From the NCBI GenBank assembly GCA_020438485.1, contig JAGQUM010000018.1, forward strand, positions 1 through 64,000: DNA of 64,000 bases, in the 5' to 3' direction. The notes beneath the pieces are model-generated. The model saw only the letters and a program-made list of their open reading frames with translations, ran no database searches and was not told the origin of the DNA. Source of the DNA: Thermoleophilia bacterium. GTDB lineage: Bacteria; Actinomycetota; Thermoleophilia; Miltoncostaeales; Miltoncostaeaceae. A program made the position numbers and the translations under genes. Shown one piece after another: positions 51,219-53,992 of this stretch (position 1 is the first letter of the stretch; the number at the start of each line of letters is the position of its first letter).

Positions 51219-52319
51219 CTAGCCCTCCACCAGCACGAACCGGTCGCGGTGGATGACCTCGGCGGGCAGCATCAGCCCGCGCGCGGCGATCGCCGCCGAG
51301 CTGAGTCCCCTCACGGCGTCCACGTCGGCGCGCGACATGGCGGCGATGCCCTTGCCCACGGGCTCCCCCGACGCGCCCACCACGTCCACCGCGTCGCCGA
51401 CGGTGAACGCCCCCGACGCGCCCGTGACCCCCACGGCCAGCAGCGAGCGCCCCTTCACGCGCAGCGCGCGCGCAGCGCCGTCGTCGACCGCGACACGGCC
51501 CCGCGACGGCTTGGCGTGGCGCAGCCACAGCTTGAACGCGGGCTCCCGCTGGGCGCGGGGCCGGAAGCGGGTGCCCACGCTGCCGCCGTGGGTGACCGTG
51601 GACACCACGTCCGGGTCGGAGCCCGACGCCACGACCGTCGTGATGCCGGCGCCCACGGCCATGGCGGCGGCGCCGATCTTGGATGACACCCCGCCGCGCC
51701 CCAGAGCCGAGCCGCCCCCCAGGGGGGCCAGCGCGACGCCCTCAGGGCCGACGTCGGAGCGCACGTCGCCCAGCAGGACGGGGCTGCCGTCGTCGCCCAC
51801 GCCGTACAGCCCGTCCCGGTCGGTCATGAGCACCAGCCACGTCGCGCCCAGCAGCACGGCCACCTGGGCCGCCAGCACGTCGTTGTCGCCGAACGTCACC
51901 TCGTCCGTCGCCGTGGTGTCGTTCTCGTTCACCACGGGCACGGCGCCCAGCTCGACCAGGCGGGTCAGCGTGGTGCGCGCGTTGAGGTACGTCGCCCTGC
52001 CGGCGATGTCATCGGAGGTCAGCAGGACCTGCGCCGGCGTGATGCCGTGGCGGGCGAACGCCTCCTGGTAGTGGCGGAACAGGATGCCCTGACCGACGGC
52101 CGACGCCGCCTGCAGGTCCTCCAGGGCCGTGGGCCGGGCCGGGAACCCCAACGGCGCGAAGCCGCACGCGATGGCGCCGCTCGACACGAGCACGGGGCGG
52201 TGCCCGAGGCGTGCGACGCGTGCCAGGTCCGCCACCCTCATCTCGAGCACGTCCAGCCGCACCCGCCCCGCACCGTCCACCAGCGTGGACGATCCCACCT
52301 TCGCGACGACGACGCTCAC
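51219..52319 (-). CDS. proB: Glutamate 5-kinase
   Basis: First step of proline synthesis. The 366 residues contain the amino-acid kinase domain (VAKVGSSTL, LVSSGAIACG, VNENDTTATDE, LLMTDRDGLY as LVLMTDRDGLY) and a C-terminal PUA domain (DDGAARALRVKGRSLLAVGV, cited by GAARALRVKGRSLL). GTG 52319 overlaps the obg stop (GTGA). proA does not follow, in contrast to many relatives. Confidence 0.96.
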   Translation of the reverse strand: MSVVVAKVGSSTLVDGAGRVRLDVLEMRVADLARVARLGHRPVLVSSGAIACGFAPLGFPARPTALEDLQAASAVGQGILFRHYQEAFARHGITPAQVLLTSDDIAGRATYLNARTTLTRLVELGAVPVVNENDTTATDEVTFGDNDVLAAQVAVLLGATWLVLMTDRDGLYGVGDDGSPVLLGDVRSDVGPEGVALAPLGGGSALGRGGVSSKIGAAAMAVGAGITTVVASGSDPDVVSTVTHGGSVGTRFRPRAQREPAFKLWLRHAKPSRGRVAVDDGAARALRVKGRSLLAVGVTGASGAFTVGDAVDVVGASGEPVGKGIAAMSRADVDAVRGLSSAAIAARGLMLPAEVIHRDRFVLVEG

Positions 52320-53260
52320 GTGACGCCCGGGGCGGCCAGGAACCCGGTCACCGCGTCCCGGAGGTCGTCCACGCCGGCGTCCAGCACGATCTCCACGGCC
52401 CGGTCGGCCCAGCTCGGTGCGTTATCAGGGTCGGAGAACGTCGCGACCACCCATTCGGTGGCGTCGTCGCGACGGAACGGGGCGATCCCCTGCCGCACGC
52501 GCGCGATACGGTCGCCCGCCGGCTCGGGATCCTCCTCGCTGACGCAGTGGAGGATCAGTCTCGCGTTCTCGACCTGCGCGAGGTGCGCGCGGGGCCGGGG
52601 GGTGCCGTCCTCGGCCAGCCCGGGGACGTCCGCGACCAGGTACAGGTTGGCGTAGTCGTCCGTGAGGGGCCCGAACGCGGGCTCGCGCGTGGAGTGCGGG
52701 TAGGGGGCGACGGTGGCGGCGGCCCCGGTCAGCGCGTGCAGCAGCGCGCTCTTGCCCGCGTTCGGCAGGCCCACGATCACTGCGTCGACGGGCGAGATGA
52801 ACTCCAGCGTCAGCCACGCCGCCTCGCCGGGCATGCCGGGCACTGTCTCGCGCGGCGTGCGGTGCGTGGACGACTTGAACGCCCGATTGCCCACGCCGCC
52901 CTCGCCGCCGCGGGCCACGAGCACCCTGTCACCCGCGTCGTTGAGGCGCGCGATCACCTCGTCGTCGCGCAGCACGCGGGTGCCGGGTGGAACCGGGACC
53001 TCCAGGTCGGCGCCCGCCTTTCCGTGCTTGCCCCGTCCCTCCCCCGGCATGCCGGGGCGCGCCTTGTGGTGCACGGCGTGGCGGAACAGCGACAGGTCGA
53101 CATGATCGTCGTCGGCCACGAGCAGCACATCGCCGCCCCGGCCGCCGTTGCCGCCGTCGGGGCCGCCCTTCGGGATGTACTTCTCGCGGCGGAACGACAG
53201 GCAGCCGCCGCCGCCGTGGCCGCCCTCCACGTGAATCCGCGCGGTGTCGGTGAAGGGCAT
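52316..53260 (-). CDS. obg: Obg-family GTPase with a degenerate G4 motif and no OCT domain
   Basis: A 314-residue Obg. The glycine-rich Obg domain (1-156) is intact: HVEGGHGGGGCLSFRREKYIPKGGPDGGNGG, cited by GGHGGGGCLSFRREKY and GGPDGGNGGRGGD. The G domain has G1 GLPNAGKS (164-171), switch T in YPHSTREPAFG and G3 DVPG (211-214). Where Obg proteins carry V-x-NKxD, this one reads VVATFSDPD (271-279), and the protein ends at GVDDLRDAVTGFL soon after, without the C-terminal OCT domain; G5 is also unclear. Obg helps 50S assembly. Guanine specificity is therefore doubtful. Confidence 0.9.
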   Translation of the reverse strand: MPFTDTARIHVEGGHGGGGCLSFRREKYIPKGGPDGGNGGRGGDVLLVADDDHVDLSLFRHAVHHKARPGMPGEGRGKHGKAGADLEVPVPPGTRVLRDDEVIARLNDAGDRVLVARGGEGGVGNRAFKSSTHRTPRETVPGMPGEAAWLTLEFISPVDAVIVGLPNAGKSALLHALTGAAATVAPYPHSTREPAFGPLTDDYANLYLVADVPGLAEDGTPRPRAHLAQVENARLILHCVSEEDPEPAGDRIARVRQGIAPFRRDDATEWVVATFSDPDNAPSWADRAVEIVLDAGVDDLRDAVTGFLAAPGVT

Positions 53261-53287: not shown

Positions 53288-53554
53288 CTAGGCCGCGCCG
53301 GCCTCCACCGGGTGCACGAAGATGCGCCGCCCCTTGCGGCCGTTCGTGAACTCCACCCGGCCGCTGACCGTCGCGAAGATGGTGTAGTCGCGCCCCATGC
53401 CGGCGCCGTCGCCGGGGTGGAACTCGCTGCCGCGCTGGCGGACGATGATCGATCCCGCGGGCACGAGTTGCCCCGAGAACACCTTCACGCCGAGGCGCTT
53501 CGCCGCGGAATCGCGACCGTTGCGGCTGGAACCGCCACCCTTCTTGTGAGCCAT
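53288..53554 (-). CDS. rpmA: 50S ribosomal protein L27
   Basis: An 88-residue ribosomal protein near the peptidyl-transferase centre. It starts [20 protein letters not shown], with [23 protein letters not shown] (cited by [19 protein letters not shown]). No N-terminal extension of the type cleaved in Firmicutes. ATG after GGGGGA. Confidence 0.98.
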
Positions 53555-53566
53555 ATCGTCGTCCCC

Positions 53567-53866
53567 CTAGCCCGCGATGCTCTCGACGCTGACCCGCGAC
53601 AGGCGCGAGCGGTGCCCGCGGCGCTTGCGGATCTTCTTCTTGGCCTTGTACGTCGCCGCGATGAGCTTGGGGCCCAGCACGTGCTCCTCGACCTTCAGCG
53701 TCACGGTGCCGCCGCCGGTGATGTCGCCGCCGGCCTCACCGACCATCAGCGTGGTGGGCTTCAGCGTCTTGCCCTCGTCCTCGCCCAGCCGGTCGACGAG
53801 AAGCGTCTCGCCCGCCTTGACGCGGTACTGCTTGCCCCCGAGGGCGATTACGGCGTAGTCCGGCAC
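53567..53866 (-). CDS. rplU: 50S ribosomal protein L21
   Basis: A 99-residue early-assembly 50S protein, starting PDYAVIALGGKQYRVKAGE and ending KKKIRKRRGHRSRLSRVSV. GTG at 53866 is preceded by GGGAG; an upstream in-frame start would add about 35 residues unlike L21. Followed 12 bases later by rpmA. Confidence 0.96.
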   Translation of the reverse strand: MPDYAVIALGGKQYRVKAGETLLVDRLGEDEGKTLKPTTLMVGEAGGDITGGGTVTLKVEEHVLGPKLIAATYKAKKKIRKRRGHRSRLSRVSVESIAG

Positions 53867-53943
53867 CTTCGACTCCCACGACACATTGGATATCCGGCGT
53901 CGCGGCGGGCACAGCCCGACGGCGTTCTGCGACGCGACGCCGA

Positions 53944-53949
53944 ACACTA
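53944..53949 (-). promoter_or_regulatory. Possible -10 element for rplU-rpmA-obg-proB-nadD
   Basis: TAGTGT on the minus strand (53949-53944) would give a leader of about 70 bases before the rplU start. No convincing -35. Confidence 0.3.
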
Positions 53950-53992
53950 CCACGCGCGGGCCCATGCTCACAGCCCCCGCGCGTCCCCCCGG

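Follow-up and report, generated by a model that had tools for sequence, protein, structure and literature searches.

A lineage-wide Obg variant with eroded G4 and G5 motifs in the Miltoncostaeaceae

Introduction

Wherever bacteria have been tested for it, Obg has proved essential, and its reliance on GTP, GDP, and ppGpp is regarded as the link between growth and the assembly of ribosomes. The DNA analyzed here, a 64,000-nucleotide stretch of a Thermoleophilia draft genome (the window), encodes an Obg in which the guanine-recognizing G4 motif NKxD is missing. Is this protein the only Obg of the cell, and, if so, what has become of its nucleotide specificity?

Results

The obg locus

The obg (cgtA) gene occupies positions 52316..53260 of the minus strand, stop codon included, as an unbroken reading frame that starts with ATG and encodes a remodelled Obg of 314 aa without an OCT domain. 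The rplU-rpmA-obg operon proposed in the initial annotation was borne out: rpmA (bL27; 53288..53554) and rplU (bL21; 53567..53971, the coordinates being those of the ORF as listed, whose true start is probably internal) lie upstream on the same strand, and proB (51219..52319, minus strand) follows, its start sharing 4 nt (GTGA) with the obg stop, with nadD and rsfS after it. The order rng-rplU-rpmA-obg-proB-nadD-rsfS was kept in the family loci examined. A genome of the same genus encodes an Obg 79% identical to this one, also with TFSD at G4. Comparison of the two genes gave a dN/dS of 0.24 overall, the Obg domain evolving more slowly (0.17) than the G domain (0.30); the gene is under purifying selection.

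Domains, motifs, and predicted structure

All features below lie on the minus strand. The N-terminal glycine-rich Obg domain (GTP1_OBG; residues 5-154, 52799..53248), conserved and ribosome-facing, was detected by PF01018 at 170.8 bits (cut-off 27; E 5e-51 to 2e-50). As first described, G1, the switch Thr, and G3 are also recognizable, and in all three the protein agrees with Obg/CgtA: the P-loop GLPNAGKS (residues 164-171, 52748..52771) includes G164, P166, N167, G169, and K170, invariant in the family; Thr191 of switch I (52688..52690) occurs in 38 of 39 family rows; and the G3 motif DVPG (211-214) opens a shortened switch II (residues 211-235, 52556..52630).

The G4 region departs from this agreement. 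The initial annotation had read ATFSDPD instead of NKxD, and the letters are right and NKxD is absent; however, Asp277 is still aligned and the main change is from Lys to Phe, so that calling the motif wholly missing would overstate the case. The protein has neither NKxD nor S/TKxD: the degenerate G4, Thr-Phe-Ser-Asp (274-277, 52430..52441), keeps the Asp, and the Lys is gone. It is followed by a G4-G5 spacer of 12 residues (278-289, 52394..52429), compared with at least 21 in other Obgs, from which helix alpha-4 is missing, and by a degenerate G5, VEIVLDAG (289-296, 52373..52396), in place of (V)SAxTGxG, the 'SA' being lost (V-E-I-V at 289-292). The alpha-4 deletion and a switch II shorter by 3 residues had both been overlooked at first. 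The C-terminal end lies 37 residues past the G4 Asp, in line with the earlier estimate of about 35, and the absence of OCT noted then also stood, a PF09269 (OCT) scan giving no match in this protein or in the family members scanned; of the four class relatives scanned, three carry OCT. OCT is optional, many Obgs, such as that of E. coli, being without it, and its absence by itself is unremarkable.

The MMR_HSR1 profile followed the G domain only as far as residue 253, and the NCBIfam equivalog cut-offs were missed (TIGR02729, 250.9 versus 280.25 bits; NF008956, 254.6 versus 300). With TIGR02729, class relatives reached 375-405 bits and the scanned family members about 250. The GTP1/OBG signature, which we take to be D[LIVM]PG[LIVM](2)[DEY][GN]AxxGxG, was present in 0 of 38 family rows and in 104 of 114 other Obgs.

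An AF2 model of the protein (pLDDT 88.5, from an alignment with few family members and without ligand) placed TFSD at the end of strand 5, with alpha-4 absent ahead of a short strand 6 and alpha-5. The best Foldseek matches were T. thermophilus Obg, E. coli ObgE (free and on the pre-50S), and human GTPBP5, including ribosome-bound forms. Orthology with Obg is supported by the single copy, the rplU-rpmA-obg position, and the closest structures, which are those of Obg.

A single Obg in each genome

The lineage is the Miltoncostaeaceae of the class Thermoleophilia, since the first 5 kb of two small contigs in one family genome (G019) were 100% identical to the Miltoncostaea oceani plasmids NZ_CP064357.1 and NZ_CP064358.1; the window belongs to another genus of the family than Miltoncostaea. 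The family set comprised 42 genomes in 12 genera, the whole order as sampled. In the open-access literature, we found no paper connecting Miltoncostaea with Obg.

A PF01018 (GTP1_OBG) profile search of the window's genome, a 91-contig draft of 95% completeness, and of the family found no second Obg: the window's genome has a single locus, and the 40 family genomes that gave a match have one full locus apiece, the other two being fragmented drafts. One Obg each was found in the single-contig 99%-complete and 100%-complete family genomes. A second, normal Obg elsewhere, as the initial annotation had suggested, was rejected on this count, and a hidden normal Obg in the family is very unlikely, because each genome with a match, near-complete relatives included, has one full locus. 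An artefact, whether an assembly error or a pseudogene with a normal Obg in the unassembled 5%, might be suspected from the state of the draft; yet the same form recurs in the same-genus genome and in relatives that are single-contig or complete and have one Obg apiece, and the ORFs are intact. The relatives' intact single Obgs and the dN/dS of 0.24 already refute this explanation, to which we attach next to no credence.

This set included irregular records. An extra PF01018 fragment in G031, at a sub-threshold 20 bits, is not an Obg, and in the Obg of G009 (L005:1352-2245) some 10 residues of the Obg domain are missing after FRREKY, through deletion or an assembly effect.

Family-wide remodelling of the G domain

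Alignment of 38 family Obgs with 114 other, ordinary Obgs revealed a remodelled G domain common to 38/38 of the former and 0/114 of the latter. Switch II, counted from G3 to strand 4, has 25 residues in all 38 family proteins versus 28 in all 114 others, and within it all family members carry Arg222 (52595-52597) and Gln229 (52574-52576), at positions occupied by Leu (113/114) and His (114/114) in the other set. Between G4 and G5, the family has a spacer of 9-13 residues. Lys170, D211, P213, and G214 were invariant in the 38 family rows, and Thr191 was present in all but one. The family Obgs are monophyletic, on a stem of 1.01 changes per site. Among 397 genomes of the phylum, only family members reached 1e-70, a threshold that ordinary Obgs do not reach, so that the search speaks only to close copies, of which none turned up outside the family. 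A record cut at a contig end (L034) reads GLPNSGTT at the P-loop, without the Lys, which is likely a sequence error.

The class relatives carry NKxD or SKxD at G4, plus one row each with TKxD and NRxD. The change in the window's gene could have been put down to sequencing error had relatives shown NKxD at the same locus, as initially considered, but no family member examined has NKxD.

Repeated erosion of G4 and G5

The G4 Lys was found in 17/38 family rows versus 113/114 others, and the G4 Asp in 30/38 versus 114/114. Family G4 words with Asp are TKCD (genus g12), TRAD/TRSD, THAD, TFSD, TFGD, TSAD, and CAAD; those without are TFTE, THVR, TSAQ, TGCR, MGCP, TGCP, and TGSA. The Obg of Miltoncostaea oceani reads TRAD. 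On a tree built without the G4/G5 columns, in which several deep family forks are unresolved and L116 forms a long branch, at least four losses of the Asp were counted within the family, and one common origin of the rows without it was rejected (AU p 1.5e-6). The G5 'SA' persists mainly in g12 and a second genus, g7.

To judge from these sequences, the pattern is one of relaxed constraint on the base-binding pocket with the phosphate site kept, and not of gene decay, because the P-loop and DxPG do not vary and selection is purifying while G4 and G5 erode. The suggestion in the initial annotation that this Obg uses another nucleotide or none becomes more likely given the family-wide erosion of both motifs.

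The protein might still be GTP-specific through a TxxD-type G4, with Asp277 contacting guanine N1/N2, Thr standing in for Asn, and Phe275 packing on the base in place of Lys. The Asp aligns exactly and is retained in 30 of the 38 rows, including all 17 TKCD rows; S or T occupies the first G4 position in 19/114 ordinary Obgs; N/TKxD is an accepted form of G4, 43% of guanine complexes are without NKxD, and solved complexes commonly show guanine bound without it, often through Asp or Glu (PMC11594714). The G4 of mouse GBPs reads TLRD, and GBPs employ T(L/V)RD (PMC2387175). Strict GTP use of this kind is a serious rival for the window's own genus, but it leaves unexplained the repeated replacement of Asp by P, R, A, Q, or E and the loss of the G5 Ser-Ala and of alpha-4 in the same family, and we consider it somewhat unlikely.

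Guanine recognition in TRAFAC proteins depends chiefly on the G4 Asp; SpoIVA, where both the Lys and the Asp have been lost and G5 contains SxE, is an ATPase, and putting back its Asp alone did not alter its activities significantly (PMC7952092). A scan of the family rows for a SpoIVA-type SxE paired with Asp loss found no clean case: the window's protein has lost Lys, kept Asp, and has no SxE, and other genera have either lost Asp without SxE or have SAE together with Asp. Obgs of g12 (e.g., L014 and L021) carry SAE at G5, an SxE word of the type favouring ATP in SpoIVA, alongside TKCD at G4.

Related proteins elsewhere in the genome

Three causes outside obg were rejected. YchF, whose usual G4 form is NxxE (PMC8779481), is present on contig C49 with NVDE, as in other bacteria, and does not replace Obg; the window's protein scored only 24.3 bits with TIGR00092 (YchF/OLA1; cut-off 279.2) and has no NxxE at G4. 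A genome-wide drift of G4 was dismissed, since Era (NKTD), HflX (NKID), and Der (NKWD; first domain NKCE), named by motif and context and not by family scan, are ordinary. Loss of ppGpp signalling cannot be the driver, because RelA_SpoT was found in 27/27 good genomes.

The YchF proteins of the family fall into two TIGR00092 grades: those of g1, g3, and one of the two G028 copies (G028:C116, L177, and G028:C90) score about 400-435 bits and the rest about 275-340, a split suggestive of replacement or transfer. G010 (96% complete) gave no YchF match, and on G009:C55 the match is broken across two frames. In a FeoB-like GTPase (L131, G000:C18), the likely G4 is ALTMED, with Thr instead of the usual Asn.

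Discussion

The first observation is confirmed and extended: this is a lineage-wide Obg variant and not a new kind of protein. The single copy, the purifying selection, the common remodelling, the repeated Asp loss, and the retention of the P-loop and G3 are observed; from them we infer that this sole Obg of the cell is functional, that it still depends on Mg-NTP and acts in 50S assembly, and that its recognition of the base has weakened, a reading that we hold to be probable, if not strongly so. The N-terminal domain, which would reach into the peptidyl-transferase centre, is kept, as are G1, the switch I Thr, and G3, and NTP loading and Obg-like work on the 50S are most likely retained because the Obg domain and the recognition of phosphate and Mg are. 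The loss of OCT need not have cost function, since ObgE deprived of its C-terminal domain continues to bind the 50S and to dissociate 70S, and it is the N-terminal domain that makes the PTC contacts (PMC4028186). In the last ancestor shared by all Miltoncostaeaceae, OCT would have been lost, alpha-4 deleted, and switch II shortened with its new Arg and Gln; selection on base recognition may then have weakened, with erosion of the Lys in G4 and of Ser-Ala in G5 and several losses of the G4 Asp. A looser choice of nucleotide would have been tolerated, GTP still being possible in the Asp-keeping genera, including the window's own, and ATP or any NTP in the Asp-less ones.

The E. coli ObgE G4 mutations N283I and D286Y abolished nucleotide binding (PMC6982127), and by analogy Asp-less family members could bind no nucleotide and, in those genera, serve as a nucleotide-free scaffold. 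On another reading, the protein could be a pseudo-GTPase for which nucleotide is dispensable, a fixed 50S scaffold acting through the Obg domain with a purely structural G domain. The lower dN/dS of the Obg domain, the loss of alpha-4, the changed switch II, and the decay of G4 and G5 fit such a scaffold, as do the ObgE mutations; yet GxPNxGK[ST] and DxPG are invariant, and the switch Thr nearly so, across 12 genera, which would be needless without nucleotide, and we think it quite improbable. A stronger form of the weakened-recognition reading, that the Miltoncostaeaceae gave up the near-universal Obg GTP switch, so that their sole Obg runs on ATP or any NTP and leaves GTP/ppGpp unread with Rel/SpoT still present, is offered tentatively, as a possibility more doubtful than not.

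Among known proteins, the closest is Obg/CgtA/ObgE (TIGR02729, NF008956; PF01018 plus MMR_HSR1), shared features being domain order, neighbourhood, single copy, P-loop, switch Thr, DxPG, and fold; the family protein differs in falling under the equivalog cut-offs, in lacking NKxD, SA, alpha-4, and OCT, and in a switch II 3 residues shorter with Arg222/Gln229. YchF/OLA1, the Obg-like ATPase, is a TRAFAC relative of Obg with an altered G4 (NxxE) and non-guanine specificity, but it has a coiled coil and TGS and no Obg domain, and this genome has a separate YchF with canonical NVDE. SpoIVA, a Firmicutes sporulation ATPase derived from an Era-like GTPase, resembles the family in loss of the G4 Lys and Asp, a changed G5, kept G1-G3, and a poorly constrained Asp position; it is another protein with another function in another lineage, and its SxE in G5 is absent here, with SAE in most of g12. 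Mitochondrial GTPBP5 and GTPBP10 belong to the Obg family and act at the large-subunit PTC, and GTPBP5 is among the top structural matches, at identities of 21-31% for the pair in structural alignments.

One genus of the family, Miltoncostaea, is in culture, and the members with TKCD, TRAD, TFSD, TSAQ, TGCP, and TFTE supply a natural series that is ready to use. With this as the only Obg of its members and with at least four losses of the G4 Asp, the family permits a direct test of the need for guanine recognition in Obg.
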